A stretch of 64,000 nucleotides of DNA, taken from Nitrosovibrio sp. Nv17. GTDB lineage: Bacteria; Pseudomonadota; Gammaproteobacteria; Burkholderiales; Nitrosomonadaceae. Positions 5,429 to 63,607 of this stretch are shown here, piece by piece. The stretch's first letter is position 1. Each line of letters begins with the position of its first letter. The notes beneath the pieces were generated by a model that was not told the DNA's origin, did not search any database, and saw nothing but the letters and a program-made list of their open reading frames with translations. Where the stretch lies: the NCBI RefSeq assembly GCF_900119085.1, contig NZ_FPIQ01000007.1, positions 62,001 to 126,000 on the forward strand. The letters run 5' to 3'. A program made the position numbers and the translations under genes.

Positions 5429-5438
5429 CAATCGATTC

Positions 5439-8153: not shown

Positions 8154-8155
8154 CG

Positions 8156-11797: not shown

Positions 11798-11825
11798 AGA
11801 TTTGTCCCAGGATTCTTTTGTCTGT

Positions 11826-12401
11826 TCAGCCGCCAACGTGTACGGAGCGGTAATTTCCATCTTCCGGATAGAAGCCGAGAAATTTCAGGCGCGTTTTGCC
11901 GGTTCGCACGCCGGGGTAAAGAAAAATCGTCGGTAGGTGAAACTTGCCTTGAAGCTGGCTTTCGATAGCACCAATCCGCATGAACGGATGCAGTGCTTCT
12001 AGGTCAGTGACCAGCAAGAGCGTGTTCTGCTGTCCCTCCAGAGGCTGCAAGGCAGCCTCAAGCCGATTGAGCAAGCCGTTCTCTGTTGTCAGGATGTCCG
12101 CTAATGCCTTGTTGGTACGCGGCCAGTCCAGTGGTGCGGACTTGTCTTCCATCACGCAAAGTGTCCAGAATGGATCTTCTTTGAGCAAAGCCCAGATTTG
12201 CTCGACGATGGAGAAGGTATGCACGTCCCAGCCTTCCTGGTGCAGCTTGGCCACCCAGGCAGGCGTTTGTCGTTTCACTTCGAGAATTTGCTCTGGCGGG
12301 AAGACCAGGTAGTAGATCGGCTCGAAGCTCGCATGGCCGAGTTCCCGCCCATGCCGAATGCGCTCGCGCAATTCGTCAAAATCAGCTTTGATTGAGGACA
12401 T
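11826..12401 (-). CDS. brxB: BrxB (DUF1788)
   Basis: A 191-residue protein of the DUF1788/BrxB family, a small conserved BREX core protein of unresolved biochemical role. Family features visible: YYLVFPPEQIL near residue 30, repeated aromatic and acidic residues in the middle, and the C-terminal block LPTIFLYPGVRTGKTRLKFLGFY. Its start overlaps the end of brxA by 20 bases, showing translational coupling. Confidence 0.92.
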   Translation of the reverse strand: MSSIKADFDELRERIRHGRELGHASFEPIYYLVFPPEQILEVKRQTPAWVAKLHQEGWDVHTFSIVEQIWALLKEDPFWTLCVMEDKSAPLDWPRTNKALADILTTENGLLNRLEAALQPLEGQQNTLLLVTDLEALHPFMRIGAIESQLQGKFHLPTIFLYPGVRTGKTRLKFLGFYPEDGNYRSVHVGG

Positions 12402-13176
12402 CGCAGAGCGCCTCCATATCTGTTTTTTTCCAGCTGATGCGGATCACATCGCCAGCGGCCTGGACGATGAGCAACCCTTTCAGCGAGAGTCGTTTGATTT
12501 CCTCTAGCACGTCTTCGCGCGCCAGACCAAATAGTTTCCAGTCGTCGTGGATCAGCAGCGCGTTGTCGCTGATGCCGGAAAAATGCAGTTCGTAAACCAA
12601 GTAGGTGGCCACAGCTGGAGAAATACGGAACGGCAGGATGCGGCGACTCGTTCTCCGGCCTTGTTCGAGCATCCCATAGTCTGCACAGCAACCGGTCAGG
12701 TATCCCGAAACGTTCTGAATCATCGATTCTGACCAGTGTTTGGTCGTCAAGCCATTGCCGATGGCACGTTCAACAAAGATGCGGGCATCGGCATTAGTGA
12801 TCTGTGTGTATCCCCCTGCGTACTGAATCCAATAAACCTGACGGATGAAGTCTCCAAGTATCAAATTAGCTCGACTCGTAAAAACGAGCATGAGCTGCGT
12901 CAGGTCTGCAGTAGGAATCGTTTTGGCTAGTCGTTTGAGGTGTGCCGCCGGGGCGCCGGCTGCCACCAAGTAGCGAGGAGCAAAGCATTCAACGACGATG
13001 TTGCGCAACCGACGTGCGGTGACATTCGGGAATCGTCCCGACTCCAGTGCGACCTGATGTAGCTGATTTATCGTCATGCTAGACGACCATAGATCGAGCA
13101 GCGTTTTTGTCTCATCAACCAAGCCGAGCCCTGCCCCTAGTTGGCTCGTATAGAGCTTGTTGTAAGCCACGATCAC
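12382..13176 (-). CDS. brxA: BrxA (DUF1819)
   Basis: A 264-residue protein of the DUF1819/BrxA family, a small DNA-binding core component of BREX. It starts with GTG, and its start overlaps the brxE stop as GTGA. The N-terminal ETKTLLDLW and the block ADLTQLMLVFTSRANLILGDF fit the family. The C-terminal part (EDVLEEIKRLSLKGLLIVQAAGDVIRISW) has the look of a winged helix. Base composition (about half GC) is lower than in the core genome. Confidence 0.9.
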   Translation of the reverse strand: MIVAYNKLYTSQLGAGLGLVDETKTLLDLWSSSMTINQLHQVALESGRFPNVTARRLRNIVVECFAPRYLVAAGAPAAHLKRLAKTIPTADLTQLMLVFTSRANLILGDFIRQVYWIQYAGGYTQITNADARIFVERAIGNGLTTKHWSESMIQNVSGYLTGCCADYGMLEQGRRTSRRILPFRISPAVATYLVYELHFSGISDNALLIHDDWKLFGLAREDVLEEIKRLSLKGLLIVQAAGDVIRISWKKTDMEALCDVLNQS

Positions 13177-45753: not shown

Positions 45754-46668
45754 ATGCCCCACCAACAGCTTGCCGATCTCACCCAGCCACAGCGTGACCG
45801 TCTCGCGTTCGTGGAATTGCGTCTGCGCTTCATTGGGGAGATGCGCCGCCAGGACTTGGTCGCGCGTTTTGGTATCCAGTCCGCTGCCGCGTCCAGGGAC
45901 CTGGCGCTGTACAAGGACTTGGCTCCGGGCAATATCGACTACGACGGCAAAGGCAAGTTCTACGTCCTGGGTTCGAGCTTCCAGCCGATCTTCGATTTCC
46001 CACCCGAGCGAGTGTTGTCGTGGCTGACCCAGGGGTTTGGCGACGGTGAACCGATGCACATCAAGGCGTGGGTGGCCAGCGAGAGCCCGTCCCGGCTCAC
46101 TCACCCTGACCTAACAATCTTGGCGAGCGTCACTCGGGCCATTCATTACGAGTGCCCGCTCGGCATCGAGTACCACTCCATCTCCAGCGGTCGCACCGCG
46201 CGGGAGATCGTCCCGTTCGCGCTGATCGACAACGGCCTGCGCTGGCACGTCCGCGCCTTCGACCGCAAATCGCAGGAGTTCCGCGATTTCGTCCTCACCC
46301 GGATCAAGCGCCCTGTGGTGCGCAAGGGGCAGCCCGTAGAGTCCCACGAGATGAGCGGTCAAGACATCCAGTGGACCCGGATTGTCGAGCTGGAGCTGGT
46401 TCCTCATCCCGACCAGCCACGGCCAGAAATCACCGAAATGGACTACGGCATGCAGGGTGGTGCACTGCACATGAAGCTGCGCGCCGCCACGGCGGGCTAC
46501 ATCCTGCGCAAATGGAGTGTGGACTGCTCCCCCGACCATCGCCTGCGCGGCCCGGAGTACCGGCTTTGGTTGAAGGACCATCTGGCGATCTACGGCGTGC
46601 GCAATGCGGTGCTGGCGCCGGGTTACCGCTCCCCTGATCAACAACGGCTCGAAGCCGAGATGGACTGA
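45754..46668 (+). CDS. WYL-domain regulator of the BREX locus (BrxR/CapW-like)
   Basis: A 304-residue protein with an N-terminal winged HTH (RQDLVARFGIQSAAASRDLALYKDLAPG), a WYL domain (GIEYHSISSGRTAREIVPFALIDNGLRWHVRAFDRK) and a C-terminal WCX-like part. This layout is that of BrxR and CapW, repressors that head BREX, CBASS and other defence operons and are thought to sense phage-derived ligands through the WYL domain. It is the first gene before brxF, 10 bases apart. Binding of operators upstream is inferred. Confidence 0.88.
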   Translation: MPHQQLADLTQPQRDRLAFVELRLRFIGEMRRQDLVARFGIQSAAASRDLALYKDLAPGNIDYDGKGKFYVLGSSFQPIFDFPPERVLSWLTQGFGDGEPMHIKAWVASESPSRLTHPDLTILASVTRAIHYECPLGIEYHSISSGRTAREIVPFALIDNGLRWHVRAFDRKSQEFRDFVLTRIKRPVVRKGQPVESHEMSGQDIQWTRIVELELVPHPDQPRPEITEMDYGMQGGALHMKLRAATAGYILRKWSVDCSPDHRLRGPEYRLWLKDHLAIYGVRNAVLAPGYRSPDQQRLEAEMD

Positions 46669-46678
46669 TGGGATAAGC

Positions 46679-47146
46679 ATGCTCGCAAAACTCGAACGAC
46701 TCATCAGCGAAATTGGCGACCTCAACAGCAAGTTGATCCTGCTGGTCGGCTCCAGCCGCAGTGGCAAAACCCAACTGCTGCGCCAGCTCGGCAACAAGCT
46801 CAACATCGAGCCACTCAACGTCGGCCTGGAACTGGGGCGCCGATTGGCCGCCACGCCGAACAACAAGCGCGGCTTCTCGGCAGGCGAACTGCTGCGTGAG
46901 ATTGCGCTGCTTGAAACATTCGGGGAACGAGGCGAAGCCCCGCTGCTGCTCGACAATCTTGAGTTGCTGTTCGAGCCCAGCCTACAGATCAACCCGCTTG
47001 ACCTCGTCAGGCGGCTGGCTCACTCCAGGCGCGTCGTGGCCGTTTGGCCTGGCGAGTTGCGCGGTGATCGGCTGATTTATGCCGACATGAGCCATCCAGA
47101 ACATCGTGACTACAGCCAGGACGGCGTGGTCGTACTCGAAATTTGA
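46679..47146 (+). CDS. brxF: BrxF, type 3 BREX P-loop protein
   Basis: A 155-residue small ATPase. Walker A is LLVGSSRSGKTQLL (residues 21-34), Walker B is in LLLDNLELLFEPS. BrxF is restricted to type 3 BREX and lies just before the large brxC, as here. ATG 46679 is at the WYL gene's end with a GGGATAAGC lead; the brxC TTG frame starts inside its last codons, but the likely brxC ATG is 36 bases on. Confidence 0.88.
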   Translation: MLAKLERLISEIGDLNSKLILLVGSSRSGKTQLLRQLGNKLNIEPLNVGLELGRRLAATPNNKRGFSAGELLREIALLETFGERGEAPLLLDNLELLFEPSLQINPLDLVRRLAHSRRVVAVWPGELRGDRLIYADMSHPEHRDYSQDGVVVLEI

Positions 47147-47181
47147 CCGAATTAACGAAAACTGCGGGAAGAGAAAAGCAT

Positions 47182-50100
47182 ATGGGCACGAACATGAAAT
47201 ACGGAGATCTGATCCAATTCGAGCAGATCGAATCAGTGATCCAACTGCTCGATGCCGGGCGCCCGGACGAGGCCAAGAAGCTCGTCGCGACCTACGTCAT
47301 CTCCGATGACATGGCCGAGCGAATCTCCAAGCTCATGGTTCCCCAGCTCAGTTTCGAGGATTCGGTCGATCACAAAGGCGTGCTGATCGTCGGCAACTAC
47401 GGCACCGGTAAGTCGCACTTGATGTCGGTGCTGTCGCTGGTGGCAGAAGACGCCGCTTATGCGCCGATGATTCGCCACCCCAAGGTCGCCGAGGCGGTTG
47501 CCTCCATCGCAGGAAAATTCAAGGTTCTTCGCATCGAGGTGGGCGGCCTGGAAATGCCGCTACGCCAGGTCATCACCCAGCAGCTTGAGCGCTTCCTCGG
47601 CAAGCTGGGCGTCAGCTACAGCTTCCCGGCGGCAGATCAGGAACTCAACAACAAAGAGTCTCTTGAAGAAATGATGGCCGCCTTCCATGAGGTCTACCCA
47701 GACCAAGGCCTGTTGCTGGTGGTTGACGAGTTCCTGGAATACCTGCAGTCGCGCAAGGACAACGAACTGATTCGCGACTTGGCCATCCTGCGGCAGATCG
47801 GTGAAATCACTAAACATCTCAAGTTCCGCTTTGTCGCTGGCGTGCAGGAAGCCATCTTCGACAGCGTGCGCTTCCAACATGTGGCCGACAGCATGCGCCG
47901 GGTCAACGAGCGTTTCACCCAAATCCTGATCGACCGCCAGGATGTCAGCTTCGTCGTCTCCGCGCGTCTTCTCAAGAAGACCGCTGACCAGCAAAACAAA
48001 ATCCGCGAATACCTCACGCCGTTCGCCAAGTTCTACGGCTCCATGAACGAGCGGATGGACGAGTACGTGCGGCTGTTCCCGGTTCACCCGGACTACCTGA
48101 AGACCTTCGAGCAGATCCACTTCACCGAGAAGCGTGGCGCGCTCAAGACCATCGAGGCCGCCATGCTGGCCATCCTCGATCAGGAAGTGCCCGCCGACAA
48201 GCCGCTGTTCATCAGCTACGAAAGCTTCTGGAACACGATCAAGGCCAACTCGGTCTTGCGCGCCGACCCCAACATCAAGGAGGTGATGCGCGTCTCCGAA
48301 GTGCTGGAGTCACGCGTGCAGCAAGCCTTCACACGGCCAACCTACAAGGCCATGGCGCTGCGCGTCATCAACGCACTGGCCGTGCACCGCTTGACCACCG
48401 GCGGCGACATCCACGTGCCCATTGGCCCCACGGCCGCCGAACTGCGCGATGCCCTGTGCCTGTTCCAGCCAGGCGTGGAGGACATGCCCGGCGATCCGGC
48501 CGAGAACCTGCTGTCGATGGTGCAAACCGTGATGCGGGAGGTGCTCAAGACCGTCAACGGTCAGTTCATCTCCAAGGCACCTGACACCGAGCAGTACTAC
48601 CTCGACCTCAAGAAGGACATCGATTACGACGCGCAGATCGAAAAGCGTGCCGAAGCCCTGTCCGACGACGCTCTGGACCGCGCCTATTACAGCGCCATCA
48701 AAGCACTGATGGAGTGCAGCGACGACCTGCGCTACCCCGGCTTCCAAATCTGGCAGTACCAGATCGAGTGGCAGGAGCGCCGCGTCGAGCGCATGGGCTA
48801 CCTGTTCTTTGGTGCCCCGAATGACCGGCCCACGGCACAGCCCGAACGCGACTTCTACATCTACTTCATCCAGCCCTTCGACCGGCCGAAGTTCAGCGAC
48901 GCCAACCTGGCGGACGAGGTGTTCTTCCGACTGAAGTCCCCCGACGAAGACTACAAGCGCTACCTGTCCCAATACGCGGCGGCATTGGACTTGGCGTCCA
49001 CCGCCAGCGGTGGCGCGAAGGCCGTTTATCTGTCCAAAGCCCAGGACTCGCTGCGGTCCATGAGCAAGTGGCTGCAAGAAAAGCAGATGACCGCATTCGA
49101 GGTCACCTATCAGGGCAAGACCAAGACGCTGCAGGATTGGGCCAAGGGCGTGTCCCTGCGCGAACGGGCACGCTTGGGGCCGGAGGAGCGCATCAACTTC
49201 CGTGACGTGGTGAACATCGTCTCTGGCCTGGCACTGGGCCAGCGCTTTGCCGACATCGCGCCCGAATACCCCACGTTCTCGGTGCTGGTCACCGAGGCCA
49301 ACCGCAAGCAATTGGTGGGCAATGCGCTGCGCGCACTGGCAGGCGGAACGCGCACCAAGGATGCCGCAGCCGTTCTCGATGCTCTGGAGCTGCTCGATGG
49401 CGACCGCGTTGACCCCGCCAACTCCCGCTACGCGCAAGAGGTGCTGAACCGCCTCAAGGCCAAAGGCCACGGTCAGGTGCTCAACCGCAATGAACTGCTG
49501 TCGGGCTCGTCCGACATCGAATATTTTGCGCCGCTCAAGTACCGGCTGGAACCCGATCTGCTGGTCACCGTGCTGGGCGGCCTGGTCTATTCCGGCGAAC
49601 TTGTGCTGTCGATCACCGGCGACAAGATCGACTCCGGCAAGCTGGCCCAGTTGGCTGAACGCTCGCTGGAGGAACTCAAGCAGTTCAAGCACGTCGAGGC
49701 ACCCAAGGAGGTCAACCTCACCGTGCTGCGCACCTTGTTCGAGCTGCTCGATCTGCCGTCCGGCCTGGCTCAGAAGGCCAGCCAAGGCGACACCGAACCC
49801 GTCGTCAAGCTGCAAGAGAAGGTCAGCGCGCTGGTGCCGCGCGTGCTCAAGGCCGGCTCCGACCTGCAGCAAGGCAAGCTCGGCTTCTGGGGCCAGAACC
49901 TGCTGCGCGAAGAAGAAGCCAAAGACTGGTACGCCCGACTGGATTCGCTGAAAAAGTTCACCGAATCGCTGACGCCGTACAACACCGTCGGCAAGCTCAA
50001 GAACCTGCGCGTCACGCCGGACGATCTGGACAGCCAGAAGAAGAATCTGGAAATCCTCGCCGCCGTCGAGCGCCTGCTCGAACTGGTGGCCGATCTGGGC

Positions 50101-50922
50101 AGCACAGCCTCTTACCTCTCCCAGGCCGAAATGGTGCTGCCCACCGATCACCCGTGGGTGAAGCAAGCCGAGGCAGCCCGCAAAACCCTGCAAGACAAGC
50201 TGAGCCAGGACCGCACCGCCGAGCACGCTTCTGAATACCGGCAAACGCTGGGCCAGCTCAAGAAGGACTACATCACCGCCTACATCGCCAGCCACAGCAA
50301 GGCACGGCTGGGCGTGGCCGAAGACAAGACCCGCAATGCCCTGCGCCGTGACGAGCGCCTGCTGGCGCTGCGCGTATTGGCCGGCGTGTCGTTGATGCCC
50401 ACCAGCCAGCTCACCGCCTTCGAAGAGTCCCTCAACGGCCTGAAGAGCTGCTCCTCGCTGGATGAGCCAACGCTGGTCACGGCTGCCGTCTGCCCGCACT
50501 GCCAGTTCCGCCCCTCCGCCGAGCAACTGGAACTGCTGCCCGCCGCCAACCGACTGCACAAGCTGGACGATGACCTGGACGAATTGCTGGCCAACTGGCA
50601 GCAAACCCTGCTGGAGAACCTGGAAGACCCGTTCACCCAGGAGAGCCTGGGCCTGTTGCCTGCAGCAAGCAAAAAACTGATCGACGCCTTCCTGGCCTCA
50701 CGCACGCTACCAGCCCCCTTGACCCAGGAGTTCGCTAACGCCGTGCAAGAGGCGCTGTCGGGACTGGAAAAGATCGAGGTCAAGAGCGACGAGATCAAGC
50801 AGGCGTTGCTGCAAGGTGGTTCGCCCGCCACCCCGGACGACCTGCGCAAGCGCTTCGACGCGCTCATCAGCGACCGCAGCAAAGGCAAAGATGCCAGCAA
50901 GCTGCGGTTTGTTGTGGAGTGA
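47182..50922 (+). CDS. brxC: BrxC-type large ATPase of type 3 BREX (DUF6079)
   Basis: A 1246-residue P-loop protein: Walker A is VLIVGNYGTGKSHLM (Gly71-His79) and Walker B LLLVVDEFLEYL (~177-188). A long helical C-terminal region includes a CPHC half-zinc site near the end (VTAAVCPHCQFRP). The N-terminus FEQIESVIQLLDAGRPDEAKKLV fits DUF6079, the BrxC counterpart of type 3 loci. ATG 47182 was chosen with GAAGAG upstream; a TTG at 47143 overlapping brxF is also in frame. Confidence 0.9.
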   Translation: MGTNMKYGDLIQFEQIESVIQLLDAGRPDEAKKLVATYVISDDMAERISKLMVPQLSFEDSVDHKGVLIVGNYGTGKSHLMSVLSLVAEDAAYAPMIRHPKVAEAVASIAGKFKVLRIEVGGLEMPLRQVITQQLERFLGKLGVSYSFPAADQELNNKESLEEMMAAFHEVYPDQGLLLVVDEFLEYLQSRKDNELIRDLAILRQIGEITKHLKFRFVAGVQEAIFDSVRFQHVADSMRRVNERFTQILIDRQDVSFVVSARLLKKTADQQNKIREYLTPFAKFYGSMNERMDEYVRLFPVHPDYLKTFEQIHFTEKRGALKTIEAAMLAILDQEVPADKPLFISYESFWNTIKANSVLRADPNIKEVMRVSEVLESRVQQAFTRPTYKAMALRVINALAVHRLTTGGDIHVPIGPTAAELRDALCLFQPGVEDMPGDPAENLLSMVQTVMREVLKTVNGQFISKAPDTEQYYLDLKKDIDYDAQIEKRAEALSDDALDRAYYSAIKALMECSDDLRYPGFQIWQYQIEWQERRVERMGYLFFGAPNDRPTAQPERDFYIYFIQPFDRPKFSDANLADEVFFRLKSPDEDYKRYLSQYAAALDLASTASGGAKAVYLSKAQDSLRSMSKWLQEKQMTAFEVTYQGKTKTLQDWAKGVSLRERARLGPEERINFRDVVNIVSGLALGQRFADIAPEYPTFSVLVTEANRKQLVGNALRALAGGTRTKDAAAVLDALELLDGDRVDPANSRYAQEVLNRLKAKGHGQVLNRNELLSGSSDIEYFAPLKYRLEPDLLVTVLGGLVYSGELVLSITGDKIDSGKLAQLAERSLEELKQFKHVEAPKEVNLTVLRTLFELLDLPSGLAQKASQGDTEPVVKLQEKVSALVPRVLKAGSDLQQGKLGFWGQNLLREEEAKDWYARLDSLKKFTESLTPYNTVGKLKNLRVTPDDLDSQKKNLEILAAVERLLELVADLGSTASYLSQAEMVLPTDHPWVKQAEAARKTLQDKLSQDRTAEHASEYRQTLGQLKKDYITAYIASHSKARLGVAEDKTRNALRRDERLLALRVLAGVSLMPTSQLTAFEESLNGLKSCSSLDEPTLVTAAVCPHCQFRPSAEQLELLPAANRLHKLDDDLDELLANWQQTLLENLEDPFTQESLGLLPAASKKLIDAFLASRTLPAPLTQEFANAVQEALSGLEKIEVKSDEIKQALLQGGSPATPDDLRKRFDALISDRSKGKDASKLRFVVE

Positions 50923-50955
50923 AGGCAACTCAGGACTATATAGAGGGCGACAGAT

Positions 50956-52911
50956 ATGAAGCTAATAAAAATCCAAGCTATCAACTTCCGATCTGTTGAA
51001 GACAGCGGCGAATTCCAGATCGGCGATCTGACATGCCTTGTCGGAAAGAATGAGGCGGGAAAGACCGCGATATTACATGCCATCCAAGGTATTGCCCCTT
51101 CTGATGGTGATTATGCATACGACAAGACGCGGGACTACCCGCGCCGATATTTAAGCAAATTCCAGGAGCGTCATCCCAATGGGGAATCTCCGGTTGCCAA
51201 AAGCTGGTGGCAACTGGAGGGTGATGACATCGAAGCCCTGGAAGATCTTCTAGGAGCAGATGTTCTAGAAAAAACCGAAGTGATCATCACCAGTTATATC
51301 GGTCGCGGAAATACCTGGAGCATTCCGCTTAACGAAGAGGAGTGCATTCGCAAGCTTCAGGCGCGCCACGGTCTGAATGCCAAAGAAAAAGGTGACATCA
51401 AGCAGGCCAAGACAATAAAGGATGCCTTGGCAGTACTTAAAGCGCTGACCGAGCGGTCAGAAGCACAGACTGCATTCATGCAAGCCATTGAGAAATTCCG
51501 TGACGGAAATCCGGTGCTTGCCGCTATTGATCTTCTCAACAAGCAAAAGCTGACTTTTTTCTATACTTCTCACTTTGAACGGATGTCAGGTGAAATATCC
51601 CTGAATCAACTTGCTGCGGACAAGAAAAGTGGAAAGATCAGCTCTGGAGACAAGATATTTCTCGACTTTCTAGAGTATGCGGGTACGACCATAGAAGAAC
51701 TCCGTGATGCTGCAAAGCACGAAGAACTGGTAGCCCAGTGCGAAGGGGCATCCAACGACATCACTGATGAAATCTTCGAGTTCTGGAGCCAGAACGATGC
51801 CCTGGCCATCAAAATTGAAATTAACGAAGGGAGGCCCAATGATCCTCCCCCGTTCAACAGCGGGAAAATCGCAAAAATTCGGATAGAAAACAAGCATCAT
51901 CGCGTGACGGTGCCTTTGTCTGAACGAAGCGCAGGTTTTGTTTGGTTTTTCTCCTTTTTGGCGCAATTCAAGCAGCTCAAAAAATCTGCCGGCAAAGCCA
52001 TCATACTTCTTGATGAGCCGGGCCTGACGCTTCATGGCAAAGCTCAATCCGATCTTCTGCGGTATATCGAAGAGCGAATTCTGCCCGAGCACCAGGTTAT
52101 CTACACCACGCACTCACCATTCATGGTGCCAGCTCAGCGTCTGGAGGATGTCCGTGTTGTCGAAGACGTTATCGACTACCGTGATCCACGTCGCCCCATA
52201 GTAAAAGGGACGAAGGTCTCCGCTGACGTTCTTTCCGTTGACAAGGACACACTTTTCCCGCTGCAGGCCCACCTCGGTTACGAAATCACTCAGTCCCTAT
52301 TTGTTGGCCAAAACTGTCTATTGGTCGAGGGTCCATCCGATGTGGTTTATTTGCAAGTGGTATCGAGAGCATTGCAAGCCAGAGGAAGAGCTGGCTTGGA
52401 TGAGCGCTGGACTATTTGCCCTACCGGCGGCCTGGATAAGGTGTGGTCTTTCTCGTCGCTCTTCCGAGGCAATAACCTGAATATCGCTGTGCTGTGCGAT
52501 TATGGCAAAGGCGATAAGAATAAAGTTGAGAGACTTCGGCAAAGCCAGATTCTGAAATCTGAGAGAGTGCTAACGACATCTGATTTCACGGAAAAAACTG
52601 AAAGCGATGTCGAGGATTTATTCGATAGCACTTTCTATTGCGCTTTGGTTAACCAAGCGCTAGGACTCAAGGAAGGTGAAATCACAGCCGAGAAAGCCGT
52701 AGCCGCGGATCAGAGTACATGCCGTATCGTCAAGCAGGTGGAGGCGCTGTGTCGAACACTGCCTGCTGACACACTGGACTTCGGCCATTATGTTCCTGCC
52801 GATTACTTGATGAGAAACCCTCAGATTCTTGATGGAGACAGTGAGCCAGTTACTGGAACATTGGATTGCTTTGAGAAGGTATTCAAAGCGTTGAATGGTT
52901 TTTTGGATTAG
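50956..52911 (+). CDS. OLD-family ATP-dependent endonuclease inserted in BREX operon
   Basis: A 651-residue OLD-type protein: an SMC/ABC-like ATPase half with Walker A LVGKNEAGKTAIL (30-37), signature region SERSAGFVWFFSF, Walker B IILLDEPGLTLH, followed by a TOPRIM nuclease half starting LLVEGPSDVVYL with the acidic CDYGKGDKNK. OLD nucleases are found in Gabija (with a UvrD helicase), retron and BREX-associated contexts. No partner helicase follows. The DNA is markedly AT-richer than brxC before it, with rare-codon-like use (ATA, AAA, TTA), pointing to a separate origin and insertion between brxC and pglX. Confidence 0.85.
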   Translation: MKLIKIQAINFRSVEDSGEFQIGDLTCLVGKNEAGKTAILHAIQGIAPSDGDYAYDKTRDYPRRYLSKFQERHPNGESPVAKSWWQLEGDDIEALEDLLGADVLEKTEVIITSYIGRGNTWSIPLNEEECIRKLQARHGLNAKEKGDIKQAKTIKDALAVLKALTERSEAQTAFMQAIEKFRDGNPVLAAIDLLNKQKLTFFYTSHFERMSGEISLNQLAADKKSGKISSGDKIFLDFLEYAGTTIEELRDAAKHEELVAQCEGASNDITDEIFEFWSQNDALAIKIEINEGRPNDPPPFNSGKIAKIRIENKHHRVTVPLSERSAGFVWFFSFLAQFKQLKKSAGKAIILLDEPGLTLHGKAQSDLLRYIEERILPEHQVIYTTHSPFMVPAQRLEDVRVVEDVIDYRDPRRPIVKGTKVSADVLSVDKDTLFPLQAHLGYEITQSLFVGQNCLLVEGPSDVVYLQVVSRALQARGRAGLDERWTICPTGGLDKVWSFSSLFRGNNLNIAVLCDYGKGDKNKVERLRQSQILKSERVLTTSDFTEKTESDVEDLFDSTFYCALVNQALGLKEGEITAEKAVAADQSTCRIVKQVEALCRTLPADTLDFGHYVPADYLMRNPQILDGDSEPVTGTLDCFEKVFKALNGFLD

Positions 52912-52926
52912 ACAGGACGCGGTTCC

Positions 52927-53046
52927 GTGAATCTAATGCGCCTGACCACCTCCAACAAGTCGCATTCGTGGCAGCAACGCTACATGCTCACCGACGCGGG
53001 CATGCAGCTCAAGCTGCTGCACGAACAACAACAGGCCGCGCCATGA
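52927..53046 (+). pseudogene. 39-codon remnant ending in a winged-helix wing
   Basis: A short GTG-started frame, [19 protein letters not shown]-like, with DAGMQLK following. The pattern S[11 protein letters not shown] matches the last strand-turn-strand of the winged helix that ends many Fic and AlbA-type ATP-binding proteins, so it may be the 3' scrap of such a gene left behind when the Abi-like gene was inserted. Its stop overlaps the ATG of that gene as ATGA. A functional micro-protein is not excluded. Confidence 0.45.
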
Positions 53047-53792
53047 ACACCTCCGTCAACTGGATAGCGGCATACAACCAGCTATTTTCCTTGTTGGACA
53101 GGAAAGACACCCCGGCTTACCACAGCGGCGGGGATTTTCTGCGCATCGTGCAACAGGTCGATCCCGGCTCACCCAGCTACAACCAGCTCATTCCCCTGAG
53201 GCAGCAGCAAGGCAAGAGCACATCCCGCAAAGACTATTACTGGGATGTGATTCGCGAGCTACCTGAGCAGCAACGGTTCCAGTTGTTCAGATTGTTCATT
53301 GATGTGCTTGAACCCCACGCCAAGAACGAGGTGGATGCCATCAGAGGCATCGTTTTTGGCGGCGGCTATGCAGTGCCAACCACCGTGGTTCCCGTCGATC
53401 TCTGGAACTCGGAAAAACTGAACAACAGCCTCAAGGACATTGACCGAGCCGTTGATGCTCACCACTACAACCGCGCAACGACGCTGAGCTACACCTGCCT
53501 TGAGGGACTCTACAAAGCCTACGTGCGCAAGCACGTCCCCGATCAGGCCGCACTGACGGACTTGATGCCCTTATGCAAAGTGGTGAAGGACGACATCATC
53601 AAGAAACTTCAGGCGCAAGGCCCGTTTCCTGTCGAGATCGTCAACGCCATGCCGACGTTGACCAACGCGATTGCAAATTCAAGAAACGGCTTCAGCGAAT
53701 CTCACTTTGGCGGCGACTCTCAACGGTGGCTTGCCGTCTTTGCCCGTGATCTGACCAATTCCATCGGGCGTCTCATGCTCAATTTCATGTGA
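53043..53792 (+). CDS. Abortive-infection-type protein (Abi_C-like C-terminus)
   Basis: A 249-residue protein. The C-terminal ~100 residues ([21 protein letters not shown], then [33 protein letters not shown]) fit the Abi_C domain of abortive-infection family proteins, which carries an R-N-x-x-G-x-x-H-like HEPN-type motif: here [14 protein letters not shown]-like nucleases cleave RNA. The N-terminal part is unassigned. ATG 53043 was chosen; the frame extends 25 codons upstream over the previous scrap. Located between the OLD gene and pglX in the type 3 BREX operon. Confidence 0.7.
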
Positions 53793-53799
53793 GGCGAGC

Positions 53800-53919
53800 A
53801 TGACGAAGACGTTGCCAATGAACCTGAAACTCAAACGCAAGGAAATCTGTTTCCTGCCGAATGCAAACGCCCAACTTTGCGCCGTTGAATGTGGCGGGGA
53901 GCGATACGAACATGAATGA
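53800..53919 (+). CDS. Possible leader peptide overlapping pglX start
   Basis: A 39-codon frame MTKTLPMNLKLKRKEICFL followed by a Cys-containing tail. It begins seven bases after the Abi-like stop and ends inside the pglX start (ATGAATGA), a position expected of a translational coupler. No homology known to me and the length is near chance, so it is uncertain. Confidence 0.25.
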   Translation: MTKTLPMNLKLKRKEICFLPNANAQLCAVECGGERYEHE

Positions 53920-56647
53920 CCTGCTCAGTAATCACGACAAAAAAGCCACCGGCCCCGTCGAATGCCTCGGCCAAACCTTCGCCAGTGACGACGCCCGGCG
54001 CGATCACTACCTCAAGCTGCTGGCCGAAAAGCTGCAAGCCCCAGCATTCCGCCAGCAGGAAGGTTTCCCGCAAGGCACGGACGAAGCCATCCTCGCCATG
54101 TCCGATCCGCCGTATTACACCGCCTGCCCGAACCCGTGGCTGGCGGAGTTTGTGGCGCACTACGGCAAGCCCTATGACTCGGCGGTGAAATACAGCCGCG
54201 AGCCGTTTGTGGCTGACGTTAGTGAGGGGAAAAACGACCCCATCTACAACGCGCACAGCTACCACACGAAAGTGCCACACAAGGCAATCATGAGGTACCT
54301 GGCGCACTACACCTCGCAAAACGACGTGGTGCTTGATGGATTCTGCGGTACTGGAATGACTGGAGTCGCCAATGCACACGTTGGTGGCGGTAGAACTACG
54401 ATTCTCGTCGATCTTTCTCCAGTAGCGACGTTCATTGCAAAAAACCTGAACGGCTCTCTCGATTCCATCGCCTTCATGGATGCAGCGAACTCAATTGTTT
54501 CGGAGATCAAAAAGGAGAACCAGAATCTCTACCTCACCTCTCATACAGGTTGGCGAGTACGGGATCGGAAGTCTGTTGAGCACAAGCAATACCAACACCC
54601 CGGAGAACAGAAGGGTGAAGTGGAGTTTATGCTTTATTCGGATGTCGTGGCTTGCCCGAACTGCGGCTCTCAACATTCTTTTTACTCCATTGCCGTGGAC
54701 GAGATTGAGGATTCGTTGCGTTCGGAACTGAAATGCCCCGAGTGCGGTGCGGCAGCACGAGAAGCGGCTTGGGATTCGGTTTATGAGACCGTGATTGATC
54801 CTCTGCTAGATGTCCCACACAAGCAGGTCAAGATTGTTCCTGTTTTAATCAACTATTCGATAGGAACCAGCCGCTACGAAAAAATCCCTGACGAAGCCGA
54901 TCTTTCGGCCATCCAAGACAGTGAAAGAAACGCTCGGCTGTCCGGGTTTCCGATTGTTGAGTTGATAGCCGGGAAGGAAACTCAACGAAATGCTTCGCGT
55001 GGCATTACCTATCTTCATCACTTCTTCACGCCGAGGGAGCTTTACGCTGTCTCTTTGCTTCTCAAAAAAATTAGAACTAGAAAATCTGAGTCCATCGGGC
55101 AGGCGTTGCTGTTTGCACTCACTGCGTGCCTCCCCTATGCGTCGAGGATGAGGAGGTTCCGTGCTGACAGGAAAGGCGGTGGACCTCTATCTGGAACCTT
55201 GTACGTAGGATCATTGATAACCCCACCAAACGTTCTTAGTTCATTTCTAAGAAATGCGGAGACCATCGCGGGTAGCCTGTCATATCAGAGAGGAGTTCCA
55301 CGAAATAGCATCATTTCAACTCAAAGTGCCACATCGCTGTTCCAAGTTCCCGGCGAGTGCATTGACTACATCTTCGTTGATCCTCCGTTCGGTGCGAATT
55401 TCGACTATTCAGAGTTGAACTTCTTCTGGGAGGGATTGCTTGGTGTCGTAACCAGTCAGTCGTCGGAAGCGATCGTCAGTTCATCTCAAGCAAAGCAGCT
55501 TGATGACTACCGGAAATTACTGATTGCGTCGTTCAAGGAGTTTTATCGTGTCTTGAAACCGGGCCGGTGGATAACGGTCGAGTTCTCCAACACGCAGGCG
55601 GCTGTTTGGAACGCAATCCAGACCTCGTTGCAGGAGGCCGGGTTTGTGGTGGCGAACGTGTCTGCTTTGGACAAGAAGCAAGGAAGCTTCAAAGCCGTCA
55701 TGACTACCACAGCGGTCAAACAAGACCTCGTGATTTCTGCCTACAAGCCCAACGGCGGGCTGGAGCAGCGATTCGCAGAGCGTGGCGCAACGCCGGAATC
55801 CGCGTGGGACTTTGTGCAGACCCACTTGAAGCAGCTTCCGGTCGTGAAGGTCAGGGGCGGCGAGCTGGAATTCGTTGCCGAACGCGATCCGCGCATCCTG
55901 TTCGACCGGATGGTGGCGTGGTTCGTGCGGCACAGCGCGCCCGTGCCGCTTTCCAGTCAGGAGTTTCAAGACGGCCTGCGCAGCCGCTTCCCCGACCGCG
56001 ACGGCATGGTCTTTCTGCCGGAGCAAGTCACCGAATACGACAAGAAGCGCGCGCAGACCGCGCAAGCGCCGCAGATGGAGCTGTTCGTCTCCGACGAGCG
56101 CAGCGCCATCGACTGGGCGGCGGACTACCTGAAGGCGCGGCCTTCTACCTATCAGGACATCCACCCGGAGTTCATCAAGCAATTGGGCGCGGGCTGGAAG
56201 AAGCACGAAACCCGCCCGGAACTCTCCGCGCTGCTGGAAGCCAACTTCCTGCGCTATGACGGCACGGGCGAAGTGCCCAGCCAGATTCACCGCTACCTTT
56301 CCTCCAACTACCACGACCTGCGCAGCCTGGAGAAGAACGATCCGCGCCTGATTGCCAAGGCGCAAGACCGCTGGTATGTACCCGACCCGAACAAGGCGCA
56401 GGACTTGGAGAAGAAGCGCGAGAAGGCGCTGCTGAAGGAGTTTGAGACCTACAAGGCGCTCACAGTCCGCAAGATCAAGGAATCGCGCCTGGAAGTGCTG
56501 CGCGCCGGTTTCCGCGATGCGTGGGCCAGGAAGGACTACGCCACCATCCTCGCCATCGCCCACAAGCTGCCGGACGAAACCCTGCAAGAAGACGAAAAGC
56601 TGCTCACCCTGTACGACATGGCGCTGACGCGCAGCGAGGAAAACTGA
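53912..56647 (+). CDS. pglX: PglX-type DNA methyltransferase of type 3 BREX
   Basis: A 911-residue DNA methyltransferase, the pglXI gene of the type 3 locus. Motifs are in the beta-like order: SDPPYYT (64-70), then LDGFCGTGMTG (motif I, to ~151), a four-cysteine zinc ribbon (CPNC at 248-251, CPEC at 275-278), and a second catalytic-type DPPFGANFDYSE near 490. No recognisable similarity in layout to the other pglX here; the family is that of DUF1156-like anti-phage methylases. ATG 53912 has GGGGAG ten bases upstream; ATG 53861 is an alternative. The central DNA (about 54.3-55.6 kb) is AT-richer than both ends. It marks host DNA and may take part in defence. Confidence 0.9.
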   Translation: MNDLLSNHDKKATGPVECLGQTFASDDARRDHYLKLLAEKLQAPAFRQQEGFPQGTDEAILAMSDPPYYTACPNPWLAEFVAHYGKPYDSAVKYSREPFVADVSEGKNDPIYNAHSYHTKVPHKAIMRYLAHYTSQNDVVLDGFCGTGMTGVANAHVGGGRTTILVDLSPVATFIAKNLNGSLDSIAFMDAANSIVSEIKKENQNLYLTSHTGWRVRDRKSVEHKQYQHPGEQKGEVEFMLYSDVVACPNCGSQHSFYSIAVDEIEDSLRSELKCPECGAAAREAAWDSVYETVIDPLLDVPHKQVKIVPVLINYSIGTSRYEKIPDEADLSAIQDSERNARLSGFPIVELIAGKETQRNASRGITYLHHFFTPRELYAVSLLLKKIRTRKSESIGQALLFALTACLPYASRMRRFRADRKGGGPLSGTLYVGSLITPPNVLSSFLRNAETIAGSLSYQRGVPRNSIISTQSATSLFQVPGECIDYIFVDPPFGANFDYSELNFFWEGLLGVVTSQSSEAIVSSSQAKQLDDYRKLLIASFKEFYRVLKPGRWITVEFSNTQAAVWNAIQTSLQEAGFVVANVSALDKKQGSFKAVMTTTAVKQDLVISAYKPNGGLEQRFAERGATPESAWDFVQTHLKQLPVVKVRGGELEFVAERDPRILFDRMVAWFVRHSAPVPLSSQEFQDGLRSRFPDRDGMVFLPEQVTEYDKKRAQTAQAPQMELFVSDERSAIDWAADYLKARPSTYQDIHPEFIKQLGAGWKKHETRPELSALLEANFLRYDGTGEVPSQIHRYLSSNYHDLRSLEKNDPRLIAKAQDRWYVPDPNKAQDLEKKREKALLKEFETYKALTVRKIKESRLEVLRAGFRDAWARKDYATILAIAHKLPDETLQEDEKLLTLYDMALTRSEEN

Positions 56648-56648
56648 C

Positions 56649-57701
56649 ATGGCCAAGCGCCCTGCCCAGCGTGATCAGGCCGTGTCGCTGCTGCCCGTGC
56701 CCGAAGGCTACGCACGGTGGCTGGAGGAGCTGAAAAGCCGCATCCACACGGCGCAGCAACGCGCCGCGCTGGCTGTCAACCGGGAGCTGGTGCTGCTGTA
56801 CTGGCAGATTGGCCGCGACATCCTGCAACGGCAAGCCGCGCAGGGTTGGGGCAGCAAGGTCATCGAGCGGCTGGCGCACGATTTACGGGTGACATTTCCG
56901 GGCATGAAGGGGTTTTCACGCGCCAACCTGATGTACATGCGGGCGTTTGCCGAGGCGTGGCCGGATGCCGAAATTGTCCAACAGGCTGTTGGACAATTGC
57001 CCTGGGGCCACAACCTGGTGCTGCTGACCAAACTGAAAACGCAGGACATGCGCCTGGCCTATGCACAGGCGGCCATCGAGCACGGCTGGTCGCGCAATGT
57101 CTTGAACATTCACATCGAAACCCGGCGGCTGGAGCGCAGCGGCCAGGCCATCACCAACTTTGTGGAACGCCTGCCCATGCCGGGCAGCGACTTGGCTCAG
57201 CAGTCGCTCAAAGACCCTTACCTGTTCGATTTCCTCGATGTGGGCAGCGAGGCCGACGAACGCGAGATCGAGTCGGCGCTGGTCAAGCACATCACCCAGT
57301 TTCTGCTGGAGCTGGGCGCAGGCTTTGCCTTTGTCGGGCGTCAGGTGCATCTTGAAGTGGGTGGCGATGACTTCTTCATCGACTTGCTGTTCTATCACCT
57401 CAAGCTGCGCTGCTATGTGGTCATCGAGCTGAAGGCCGAGAAGTTCAAGCCTGAGCATCTGGGGCAGTTGAGCTTTTACATCACGGCGGTGGATCGGCAG
57501 GTCAAGGCCGAACAGGACGCGCCCACCATCGGCTTGCTGTTGTGCAAGAGCAAGAACGAAGTGGTGGCCGAATACGCCTTGGGCGACACATCCCAGCCCA
57601 TGGGCGTGGCCGAATACAAATTGCTGGAATCCTTGCCCAAGGAGCTGCAAACCAATCTGCCCAGCATTGAGCAGATCGAACGGGAACTGGGCAAGCCATG
57701 A
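56649..57701 (+). CDS. DUF1016 (YhcG-like) PD-(D/E)xK nuclease
   Basis: A 350-residue protein: N-terminal DUF1016 winged/helical region (RELVLLYWQIGRDIL; FSRANLMYMRAFAEAW), and a C-terminal PD-(D/E)xK nuclease with FIDLLFYH (D245) and VVIELKAEKFKPEH (E260, K262). YhcG/RpnC-like proteins are found in mobile and restriction contexts. It follows pglX by one base and overlaps the next frame as ATGA. A BREX nuclease proper has not been defined, so an embedded nuclease is worth noting. Confidence 0.88.
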   Translation: MAKRPAQRDQAVSLLPVPEGYARWLEELKSRIHTAQQRAALAVNRELVLLYWQIGRDILQRQAAQGWGSKVIERLAHDLRVTFPGMKGFSRANLMYMRAFAEAWPDAEIVQQAVGQLPWGHNLVLLTKLKTQDMRLAYAQAAIEHGWSRNVLNIHIETRRLERSGQAITNFVERLPMPGSDLAQQSLKDPYLFDFLDVGSEADEREIESALVKHITQFLLELGAGFAFVGRQVHLEVGGDDFFIDLLFYHLKLRCYVVIELKAEKFKPEHLGQLSFYITAVDRQVKAEQDAPTIGLLLCKSKNEVVAEYALGDTSQPMGVAEYKLLESLPKELQTNLPSIEQIERELGKP

Positions 57702-58062
57702 TCAGACAGTTCGATACCGGCACCACCCAGCAAGCCCGCGCAGTGGCCGACCATCTGGTACGGCAGCAGTTGCTTGATCGGCTCGGCGAGAACCAGTTTC
57801 AGGCCCGCGAGGCGATTCGCCAGCGCTTTGCCCAGGAGGCGCAAGCGCAGGCCAGGGATCAAGCCGGGGCCAAGTCGGGGCTAAGTCGGGACCAAGTTGG
57901 GCCTAAGTCGGGGCTCAGTGCCGAGCAGCAGGCATTGTTGGCCCAGATGACCGATGAACACGATGTTGCCACCTTGATGCAGTGGGTTGGTCGCCGCAAC
58001 AGCAGCAAGCAGCGCTATCGCCTGACTGCACAAGGCAGAGCGCTGCGTGATGAGGCGGGTCA

Positions 58063-58066
<4 letters not shown>
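57698..58066 (+). CDS. Winged-helix tail of a Fic/AlbA-like protein, truncated
   Basis: A 122-residue frame: helical N-part rich in Gln and Arg, then a tandem 11-residue repeat (KSGLSRDQVG, then KSGLSAEQQA) and a short end, SSKQRYRLTAQGRAL. The repeat and the RY-R-LT-x-x-G wing are known from the C-termini of Fic-type and AlbA_2 ATP-binding proteins, where a winged helix follows GTKSG-like repeats. The enzymatic N-terminal part is missing and one wing helix seems deleted. Despite this it keeps ATGA overlaps on both sides, so the operon still translates through it. Confidence 0.5.
57862..57916 (+). repeat. Short in-frame tandem repeat inside the winged-helix scrap
   Basis: AAGTCGGGGCTAAG and AAGTCGGGGCTCAG stand 33 bases apart, giving two copies of an 11-residue unit (KSGLSxxQ). 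Slippage-prone and characteristic of this protein class. Confidence 0.55.
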
Positions 58067-60872
<2,806 letters not shown>

Positions 60873-60876
<4 letters not shown>

Positions 60877-62888
60877 GCCTGTGGACGGAGCGCATCCTTC
60901 AGCCTTTCACCGCCGATCTCACCCGGCTGTGGGTGGCGTGCGACCCCGACGATGTACTGCTGGACGAAAAGCTGTTGTCTGAGCTGCGCAGCCGGGGCTT
61001 CGAGCTGATGCTGTACGAAGACCCGTTTGCCTTCCGTGCGGAGTACGAAGAGCGCTATCGCGCCGCATGGGATCGGGGTGAACCGGGACCTGCGCCTTCG
61101 CTGGTTTTGCATTTGCGCAGTGCCGATGCGAACGCCTTGCCGTGGGACATCGTGCATCACGGGCGAGTAGTTCGGCTCAGTCTTGCTGAAATTTTCCCCA
61201 GGCTGGCATACAGCGCGGTGCAGCAAGTCGAGCCGGAGCATTTTGCCGAGCTGTTTCACGCCCATCAGACTGAGTTGCAGTCGGCTCGGGGCGAGAACGA
61301 GTCGAAGGACTTCATCCTTGAACACGTTTACCAGCTTGCGCCGAGGTCGATTCGCAACCCGGTGGATTTCTGGCGCGAGCTGCTGCGAATGCACTTCGCC
61401 AACCGTTCGTTGCCACCTCTGTTCGCCCAGCACGCGGCAAGCATCATTCAAGGCAAGGGCTTGTTTGCGGATTTTCCCGTTGCCACATGGCTGACGTCCA
61501 AGAGTGCACTGCTGCGCGTAGTGCAGGATGCGTGGTATCGCTACCTGTCGAAATTGGGGCTGGATGGCACTCGTACAGGGGAGCCGCCGCCACCTGACTA
61601 TGTGGCGAAGATCGAGATTCCATTCGACCATTCCGATGTGCAGGTGCTGGTTGATTCCATGTTTCTCGACGGCAGCTTGCATCCGCTGGCGGTTCACAGC
61701 GTTCCCGCACGGATACCGAGTTGGGTCAAGGCCGGGGTCATCCAGGACCCGACGGCGTTGCAGGCCTTGGTGCTCAAAGGCATCGATGGCCTGATCGAGG
61801 CAACGCCAACGGCAGCTTCTTCGCACAAGGACTGGAGCGAGTTCGCCAAGCGCTACGGTGAGGTCCTGACCCGCACGCATGGTCTGCCAGGCAAGGAAGG
61901 CAGCGAGCATTTTCCGGCCATTCGAGACCGTATCAAGACCCTGCAGGCGCGGTCAGACGAGCATCTGCAAGCCTGGGTGGCCGCCAAGCATTACGCCGAC
62001 CTGATCCTGCAACCAGTGACCAAAGGCCCGGTGATGGTGCACCACGTACCGCGTTTTTTGCGGCATCGGCGGTCCGCCGGGGAAACCAAGTTGGCCTTGC
62101 TGGTTTTCGACGGGCTGGCCTTCGACCAGTGGGTGCAGATTCGCGAGCAACTGGTCGCCACTACAAAGCGATTCGCGTTTGACGAGGGAACCGCATTCGC
62201 ATGGTTGCCGACGGTGACATCGGTGTCGCGCCAGGCGTTGTTCTCTGGCCTGAAGCCGCGTGAGTTCGAGGATTCCATCGACCGCACGGACAAAGAGGAA
62301 TCCTTGTGGAAGACGTTCTGGCAGAACGAAGGCGTCAACCCCAACGAGGTGATGTATCGACGCGCACTGCGCCAGAGCAATCAACTCGACGGGCTGGAAG
62401 CAGCGTTGCTTGACCAGCATCCGAAGGTGGTGGGCCTGGTCATCGACGAGGTGGACGAGCGGCTCCACAAGGAGCGATCCAAGAAAGACGTGGCGATGTG
62501 GATCGGCAACTGGCTGGGGAGCGGCTTCGTTGACCGGCTGTTTTCGATGCTGCTGGACAAGGGCTATCACATCTACCTGACGGCGGACCATGGCAACGTG
62601 GAAGCCACTGGCGTTGGCAGGCCCAACCAGGGCGTGATTGCCGAAACGCGCGGCGAGCGTGTGCGGGTTTACCGGAGTGAGCCATTGCTGATTGATTCAG
62701 CAGCGGCCTATCCCAATACCGTCCGCTTGGACGTTGCAGGTCTTCCCGCGAACTTCATGCCGCTGTTCGCAGGCGGGCGGACAGCCTTTGTGCCGGAGGG
62801 CGACCAAGTGGTCGTCCACGGCGGGGTTTCGGTCGAAGAACTGATCGTACCCTTTGTGAAAGTCAGTTATTTGATAGGTAACGAATGA
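60873..62888 (+). CDS. pglZ: PglZ, BREX phosphatase-fold protein
   Basis: A 671-residue member of the PglZ family. The alkaline-phosphatase-like domain occupies the C-terminal half: LLVFDGLAFDQW (catalytic Asp/Ser site region near 411), WLPTVTSVSRQALFSG, and YLTADHGNVEATG (Asp-His metal site near 570). PglZ is the signature protein of all BREX types. ATGA overlaps with brxHII and brxA. Confidence 0.93.
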
Positions 62889-63607
62889 ACGCATCAGCCC
62901 CAAAAATTGGCTTTGATCGGTTCATTCAGCTTGATTGGGCAGCCGCAGCACTGAACGTTCGTGCAGGTGCGGCTGGGCTAGATGATCTGAATGCACTGCT
63001 CGACGCCAGCGAGCTTGGCGTGGAAGCCAAGAAGAAAACCCGCACCGTACTGAACCGGCTGTGGCTGGAGCCGCGCGCCGAACTGGTCGATTACGTCGAT
63101 CGCGGCGTGGCCATCCACAAGGCACAGCCGGACATTCCGGTAGCGGCGCTGTGCTGGGGCACGGCCGTGGCAACCTATCCGTTCTTTGGCAAGGTGGCCG
63201 AACTGGTGGGGCGCCTGTCCGCCATTCAAGGCGATTGTGCTTCCGCCGAGGTGCACCGGCGCATGAGTGAAACCTACGGCGAGCGCGAAGGCACCCGTCG
63301 CATGACCAACATGGTCATCCAGAGCCAGGCGAGCTGGGGGGCAGTTAAGCGGGTCGAGAAAGGTAAGCGAGTCATTCGGCTTGCGCCAACCGTCATCGAC
63401 AACGACGAACTCACGGCATGGCTGATCGAGGCGACAGTGCGCTACTCCGGCAAGCCTGTTTCCCTGCCCAGCCTGCAATCGCTGCCAGTGCTGTTTCCGT
63501 TCACCCTGACACAGCCACTGGGCTACGTGGTGTCGAACAGTGCGAGCCTGAGCCTTCGTGCGGAAGGACCGAGTAACCAGTTCGTGGCGCTGCGCAGCAT
63601 GGTATGA
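62885..63607 (+). CDS. brxA: BrxA-like protein, last gene of type 3 BREX
   Basis: A 240-residue protein in the position of brxA, the last gene of type 3 loci. A DUF1819-like C-terminal winged helix is suggested by MVIQSQASWGAVKRVEKGKR. Similarity to the left-hand BrxA is not obvious by eye, so the name relies partly on position after pglZ. ATGA overlap with pglZ. Confidence 0.75.
   Translation: MNASAPKIGFDRFIQLDWAAAALNVRAGAAGLDDLNALLDASELGVEAKKKTRTVLNRLWLEPRAELVDYVDRGVAIHKAQPDIPVAALCWGTAVATYPFFGKVAELVGRLSAIQGDCASAEVHRRMSETYGEREGTRRMTNMVIQSQASWGAVKRVEKGKRVIRLAPTVIDNDELTAWLIEATVRYSGKPVSLPSLQSLPVLFPFTLTQPLGYVVSNSASLSLRAEGPSNQFVALRSMV

Follow-up and report, generated by a model that had tools for sequence, protein, structure and literature searches.

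Variable defence cargo and Schlafen gene remnants in a type 3 BREX operon of Nitrosovibrio sp. Nv17

Effector genes nested in bacteriophage exclusion (BREX) operons have been catalogued, and how they arrive and leave is less clear. The main text of Rakesh and Krishnan (2026; PMC12839542) proposes that the OLD/TOPRIM, Schlafen, HEPN and PD-(D/E)XK proteins found in core BREX loci are a backup, a second and suicidal layer of defence. Passages of another report (PMC11341690) describe the type I BREX system of Salmonella D23580 with an embedded PARIS system, ariAB. Here we analyse a BREX operon in a stretch of 64,000 nucleotides from Nitrosovibrio sp. Nv17 (NCBI RefSeq assembly GCF_900119085.1, contig NZ_FPIQ01000007.1, positions 62,001 to 126,000 of the forward strand), hereafter the window, whose numbering is used throughout. 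The subject of this work is the interval between brxC and pglX (50956-53792), in which an intact OLD-family gene is followed by a short scrap of coding sequence and a small gene (Table 1). An original prediction, made from the DNA sequence alone, had taken the interval for a cargo site in a type 3 BREX operon and its OLD and Abi_C-like genes for one autonomous abortive module; the operon type, the OLD gene, the scrap with a gene behind it and the cargo site are borne out by the analysis below, and the Abi_C label and the single module are not. We consider it fairly probable that the interval is an exchange slot whose ancestor held a Schlafen gene and the small gene, that the OLD gene arrived later, and that the cargo would provide a second layer of defence.

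The brxC-pglX interval was compared in 80 loci with both genes in view, i.e. the window, five of seven plasmid records and 74 of 80 genome contigs, the genome loci being drawn from a BrxC alignment in which 428 relatives were confirmed and the best 80 kept; eight of the 88 loci searched (L002, L004, L043, L090, L091, L092, L102 and L113) had no pglX within the stretch and were left out. The interval measured 35 to 6,993 bp and was empty in 25 loci, and its contents fell under 26 distinct labels (remnants, "empty" and "other" each counted). Schlafen genes were present in 23 of the 80 loci, PD-T7-3 in 8, AriA-like genes in 5, a HATPase protein in 5, SIR2 with HerA in 4, the OLD gene in 2, the small gene in 2 and a YhcG-like gene in 1; these sets overlap, since some loci carry several genes. 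A Schlafen gene was counted when at least 400 of the 611 positions of the Schlafen hidden Markov model (HMM) were matched in one frame, those of L032, L076 and L080 being included, and L055 (split between frames) and L096 (in two pieces) were counted as well. Eight loci were labelled "other", and families c7, c9, c13 and c17 are nameless, Pfam and PADLOC offering no name for c7, c9 (Pfam matches at chance level only) or c17. Turnover extends to close relatives: the slot content was the same in 5 of the 70 pairs of loci scored with BrxC 90-95% identical (both members empty in three of the 5; one pair labelled "other" on both sides was left out), pairs with at least 95% identity agreed in 4 of 11, and L042 and L046 have unlike contents at 98.7% BrxC identity. 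In the eight loci with a BrxC that matches the window's at 90% identity or more, the slot holds PD-T7-3, an unidentified 244-aa gene, SIR2 with HerA (two loci), AriA/AriB or nothing (three loci). By this comparison the interval is a variable cargo slot, as had been predicted. Since the OLD and small genes each occur in two of the 80 loci and together only in the window, they appear to be two separate arrivals and no single module. In L085 and L089 the brxC span has stop codons in one frame and is perhaps frameshifted, decaying or misassembled.

The scrap after the OLD gene points to a former occupant of the slot. The stretch 52936-53043, in frame after the OLD stop codon, consists of 36 codons that match the C-terminus of the Schlafen protein of L076 with 75% amino acid identity and align to positions 579-611 of the 611-position Schlafen HMM (E=1e-4). 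In L076 a full Schlafen gene is directly followed by a small gene 98% identical to that of the window, and the DNA of the two loci is 93% identical from 52937 to 54280, through the small gene into pglX. A second locus, L073, carries an OLD gene whose protein is 86% identical, also directly after brxC, with SIR2 and HerA genes next to it; its DNA homology to the window spans 50815-52906. Because the homology to L073 stops at 52906 and that to L076 begins at 52937, the join between the OLD gene and the scrap can be placed within about 30 bp (52907-52936). We regard the scrap as the scar of a displaced Schlafen gene. Its stop codon overlaps the start of the small gene (ATGA), and as the stretch upstream of the small gene in L076 is the Schlafen 3' end, in another frame and with its stop codon overlapping the ATG, ATG 53043 is the most likely start of the small gene. 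The GTG at 52968, formerly proposed as the start, was dropped on these grounds.

A similar arrangement, a YhcG nuclease gene followed by ORF122, lies outside 50956-53792 in the interval between pglX and brxH, which was scorable in 56 of the 80 loci and empty in 35. ORF122 has 122 codons with ATGA overlaps at both ends, and its product is 79% identical over 120 aligned residues to the Schlafen protein encoded between pglX and brxH in L040, with an internal in-frame deletion. The match covers HMM positions 445-566, and the SLFN_AlbA_2 domain is absent from this remnant and from the first, the HMM matching each of them only in the stretch given. The YhcG protein is 95% identical to its counterpart from the second slot of L038; there, a short Schlafen-like remnant (not reported by the Schlafen HMM search) flanks the YhcG gene on the other side. 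In a quick tree of Schlafen sequences, for which no support values were computed and in which the tails are short, the first tail groups with L076 in a clade of the first slot and the second with L040 in a clade found at the second slot in six of nine members. Judged from these groupings, the two tails come from different Schlafen lineages; in L047 both Schlafen genes are full-length. Two further slot states were seen: in L078 (8554-9485) an AriB-like gene continues in frame into the C-terminal stretch of a Schlafen gene, which ends in another frame just before pglX, and in L061 (14980-16032) a transposase with an rve integrase core fills the pglX-brxH slot.

The small gene and the adjoining tail have diverged from their L076 counterparts in different ways. 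The small gene shows 6.5 nonsynonymous and 24.5 synonymous changes (proportions per site pN 0.011 and pS 0.146, ratio of rates dN/dS 0.07), and the tail shows 10 nonsynonymous and 2 synonymous changes, which fits neutrality (P=0.74); the Fisher test between the two gives P of about 2e-4 to 4e-4 with rounded counts. Between L076 and L047, which both have the tail intact, 4 nonsynonymous and 11 synonymous changes were counted in it. From this difference it seems that the tail decayed while the small gene was kept. A strong synonymous excess is also found in the OLD gene (pN 0.079, pS 0.78) and in the YhcG gene compared with L038 (pN 0.030, pS 0.362, dN/dS 0.06).

HEPN ribonucleases have the motif R-x4-6-H. 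The small protein contains R214-NGFSES-H221 (R-x6-H), identical in L076, and is perhaps HEPN-like. A Pfam search of it at E<=1 returned only HEPN and no Abi_C (HMMER filters can lose weak matches), so the Abi_C identity was abandoned; a DUF4276 match was likewise absent at E<=1. Relatives of the small protein are rare: none was found in plasmids at E<=1e-3 (one irrelevant match has E=8), in phages at E<=1, or in nine pattern stretches from viral contigs. Genome searches gave 2 matches in 398 genomes by phylum (the window's own included), one in another set of 40 genomes, which is the L076 genome, and 6 in 399 by order, of which one is the window's own and four (E 0.006-0.035) were judged chance. 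The only other intact copy found is the one behind the Schlafen gene of L076. The one further hit, in genome G491 (L140, about 9921-10060), is a remnant of the N-terminal part of the small gene, broken over two frames and directly following the gene for a 646-aa protein that by eye resembles the HATPase-type protein of several BREX slots.

Toprim domains are marked by a Glu-Gly motif and a DxD motif. The OLD protein has E458-G459 and D515 and lacks the second Asp of DxD. Ten OLD sequences all share the Walker A residues G35 and K36, the Walker B residue E354, H386 of the H-loop and the Toprim Glu-Gly. DxD is intact outside the subfamily, as DYD in the outgroup L114 and DSD in the distant L139, which was left out of the subfamily alignment. 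PADLOC ranked AriA first (E=6.6e-24, over the ATPase part, residues 1-391) and Old next (E=1.2e-22). An AlphaFold2 model of the protein (predicted local distance difference test, pLDDT, 84.0) had the Thermus OLD nuclease (6p74) as its top Foldseek match and Gabija GajA as its second, and aligned nearly end to end with both. In VIA-align the model gave Z 16.6 and a root-mean-square deviation (rmsd) of 11.9 for 398 residues over 2-651; the top rows were ATPase heads of SMC, Rad50 and PtuA, and a Toprim-only match was not listed, an absence that carries no evidential weight. Given a Toprim match under its cut-off and the absent second Asp, nuclease activity is not to be assumed; we describe the protein as a putative nuclease, for which nuclease action is likely from sequence and model.

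Relatives of the OLD protein occur outside the surveyed loci as well. They were found in 10 genomes beyond the window's own (among 398, E<=1e-30), in 8 viral contigs and on a Caballeronia plasmid, and one plasmid relative has no BREX genes annotated within 8 kb. Among 12 stretches around such relatives (10 from genomes, 20 kb each, and 2 from plasmids), none matched brxC, pglX or the small gene at E<=1e-4, and only L119 matched part of brxH. L119 (1-9971) is an Acidovorax plasmid stretch in which the OLD relative lies downstream of a helicase-DUF1156-DUF499 system with one short gene in between. Plasmid DNA matches to the slot (6 records) all fall inside the OLD gene, and the E. coli genomes searched in "distant" mode gave no match to 50923-53911. 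The OLD gene is AT-rich, as predicted, with a GC content of 0.488 vs 0.615 for brxC (small gene 0.545, pglX 0.558) and a third-position GC content (GC3) of 0.517 vs 0.827.

The reading that we favour joins these observations as follows. The brxC-pglX interval would serve as an exchange slot for defence genes that are read with the operon, and its ancestor would have held a Schlafen gene and then the small gene, as L076 still does. In keeping with joint reading, no clear promoter of the cargo's own was seen, the 18.6 kb having eight promoter-like sites against 5.0 expected (standard deviation 2.4). The OLD gene would have arrived directly after brxC, with loss of the Schlafen gene save its last 36 codons, and the pglX-brxH interval would have had a parallel history that left the YhcG nuclease gene beside the tail of another Schlafen gene. 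The comparison of loci itself shows that the cargo varies, that the OLD and small genes occur separately, that both scraps are of Schlafen origin and that synonymous changes are in excess in the cargo genes. Besides this order of events and co-transcription, we infer a trigger, a target and an abortive outcome: OLD may sense DNA under ATP gating and act through a Toprim effector domain; expressed together with BREX and responding to a trigger of its own, it would form a second layer against phage DNA that gets past PglX/PglZ restriction. The small protein may be an RNase of the HEPN type, or may bind RNA; it would originally have worked alongside Schlafen and would since have been kept by selection. 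BREX would then act first, OLD and YhcG would be independently triggered effectors, and the small protein would be a former Schlafen companion. A bolder version, which we think unlikely, makes the two intervals dedicated docks, each with a resident Schlafen lineage, where newcomers replace the body of the gene and keep its 3' end and the stop/start overlap, BREX being a platform for cassettes; if it were true, effectors could be swapped without disturbing the BREX core.

Several observations weigh against the favoured reading. On the expression side, two plus-strand promoter-like sites lie inside the OLD gene (51815-51843 and 52766-52794). As to selection, the first tail has a dN/dS of 0.27 when compared with L047, and its 12 changes from L076 lie mostly near the 5' end, so that local recombination is possible; the comparison with L076 moreover covers the time before as well as after the loss of the Schlafen gene. 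ORF122 compared with L040 has a dN/dS of 0.21 (intact control 0.075) and is only partly relaxed, and the synonymous sites of the OLD gene are saturated at the pS given above. As to function, the OLD-like_TOPRIM match is under the Pfam cut-off (E=8e-4, 20.3 vs 23.2 bits), all 13 aligned subfamily members lack the second Asp of DxD (L132 has Glu there), and the rmsd of the structural alignments to 6p74 and GajA is high. The HEPN match of the small protein is also under threshold (E=0.12, 13.0 bits vs a cut-off of 22), and its all-helical AlphaFold2 model is of low confidence (pLDDT 50.6) with no Foldseek match at E<=0.001. The 80 loci, finally, are not a random sample: they comprise the top-ranked BrxC relatives together with plasmid loci.

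Four other explanations have to be weighed. The OLD and small proteins could form one abortive module seated in BREX, a sensor ATPase with its toxin; the genes stand side by side in the operon with the same orientation, and the main text of PMC12839542 describes other BREX operons in which OLD-type ATPases have various nucleases as partners. The two nevertheless co-occur in a single locus of 80, each is found without the other in one locus, the Schlafen remnant separates them, and the 12 stretches around OLD relatives held no small-gene match, the single match of that search coming from L140, which had been fetched for its small-gene remnant. We hold a joint module to be highly improbable. Hardly better placed is the idea that the cargo genes no longer have a function and are passengers in decay: two neighbouring remnants and the broken small-gene relative in G491 indicate that slot genes do decay, but the OLD, small and YhcG genes are open over their full length with changes strongly biased to synonymous sites, and OLD retains Walker A, Walker B, the H-loop and the Toprim Glu. 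That either protein belongs to the core of type 3 BREX has next to no probability; both genes do lie inside the operon, but each is present in 2 of 80 loci, the slot is empty in 25, and the survey refutes conservation of the pair across type 3 loci.

It is also unlikely, though much less so than any of these three, that the Schlafen tails themselves are functional, the ATGA overlaps coupling translation to the next gene or the tail docking cargo to BREX. The overlap of the first tail with the small gene and those at both ends of ORF122 speak for such a role, as do the open frame of ORF122 despite its in-frame deletion and the in-frame junction of the AriB-like gene with a Schlafen stretch in L078. 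Against it, the first tail has no protein-level constraint relative to L076 (10 nonsynonymous and 2 synonymous changes), some of the C-terminal domain is missing from each remnant, the tail in L078 is split over two frames, and open frames of such length and divergence may survive by chance.

By gene content the window operon is a complete type 3 BREX system on the plus strand, with BREX_3_BrxF, DUF6079 BrxC, PglXI, a BrxH-family helicase, BREX_PglZ_3 and BrxA detected by PADLOC, Pfam and NF models in the order of Table 1. A WYL gene precedes brxF in L031 and L033 too. Homology of brxC starts only at residue 18, and its true start is therefore probably 47194. Between the small gene and pglX, a 39-codon open frame (53800-53919) has its end overlapping the pglX start, in DNA common to L076; an Rfam scan of 50800-54100 gave nothing at the gathering score. 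The BrxC of the operon (45754-63607) is 93-94% identical to those of loci titled Comamonas, Achromobacter and Atopomonas. A DUF6079 match was found in 2 of 12 genomes searched from the taxonomic family of the window, with BrxC 47-51% identical; the comparison suggests that the operon was acquired by transfer. A second BREX-like operon of another type is present on the minus strand of the window (1550-13176), with BrxA, BrxC (with BREX_BrxC_wHTH), a UvrD-like helicase and an Eco57I-type PglX-like methylase, and it too has an extra gene between brxC and the methylase gene.

Table 1. Features of the type 3 BREX operon in the window and the evidence for each assignment
Feature	Position	Strand	Evidence
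WYL-domain regulator, upstream of operon	45754..46668	+	Pfam WYL E=2.5e-11, above cut-off
brxF (type 3 BREX)	46604..47146	+	NF033453 BREX_3_BrxF 166.6 bits, cut-off 50
brxC (DUF6079 ATPase)	47143..50922	+	PF19557 1935 bits; PADLOC BrxC
OLD-family ABC ATPase with C-terminal Toprim-like domain, 651 aa, cargo	50956..52911	+	Pfam AAA_15 E=4e-22
Scrap, final 36 codons and stop of lost Schlafen (SLFN_AlbA_2) gene	52936..53046	+	End of L076 Schlafen; HMM
Small gene, 249 aa, perhaps HEPN-like	53043..53792	+	98% identical copy in L076
pglXI methyltransferase (ORF listed from 53861)	53912..56647	+	PADLOC PglXI 1223 bits
YhcG/DUF1016 PD-(D/E)XK nuclease, PDC-S02, second-slot cargo	56649..57701	+	PF06250 E=4.6e-65; PADLOC PDC-S02 551 bits
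ORF122, in-frame 3' remnant of second Schlafen gene, internal deletion	57698..58066	+	L040 Schlafen; HMM 445-566
brxH helicase	58063..60876	+	PADLOC model BrxHI|BrxHII (description BrxHI) 1459 bits
pglZ (type 3)	60873..62888	+	NF033449 BREX_PglZ_3 730 bits, cut-off 250
brxA	62885..63607	+	PADLOC BrxA 234 bits

The locus provides a better-than-usual record of cargo replacement in BREX, since it appears to keep two partly erased events in one operon, and other states are seen in L076, L073, L047, L040, L038 and L078; turnover and any role of the tails and overlaps can now be tested directly. A further lesson is that adjacent cargo genes do not have to be a functional pair, which calls for caution in naming defence systems by adjacency. 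Compared with the described systems, the window OLD protein resembles OLD nuclease (6p74) and GajA in having an ABC ATPase followed by a Toprim domain, in a nearly end-to-end fold match; it differs from them by a Toprim variant without the second Asp of DxD, and from Gabija in that no GajB-type helicase adjoins its gene, the next ORFs being the Schlafen scrap, the small gene and pglX. Like PARIS in Salmonella D23580, it is a system with an OLD-class ATPase inside a BREX operon, but PARIS, as described in PMC11341690, is a two-gene AriA/AriB system in a type I BREX, whereas here a single OLD gene encodes its own C-terminal domain and the next protein does not match DUF4276. Full bacterial Schlafen proteins such as that of L033 combine SLFN_AlbA_2, HATPase_c_4 and Fic-like_C, and both window scraps correspond to the C-terminal part, only 36 and 122 codons being kept and SLFN_AlbA_2 being lost. 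Among the open-access papers listed (subscription papers, bioRxiv and supplements lying outside), no title or abstract opening dealt with Schlafen remnants in BREX. With PMC12839542 the window shares the kinds of nested effector (OLD, Schlafen, PD-(D/E)XK nuclease and perhaps HEPN); that paper's main text, where the terms "remnant", "displace" and "truncated" are absent, was not seen to describe displaced Schlafen remnants, slots on both sides of pglX or cargo exchange among close relatives. As far as that main text goes, backup suicidal effectors in BREX are already in print, and the paired Schlafen scars of the Nitrosovibrio operon add detail to them.

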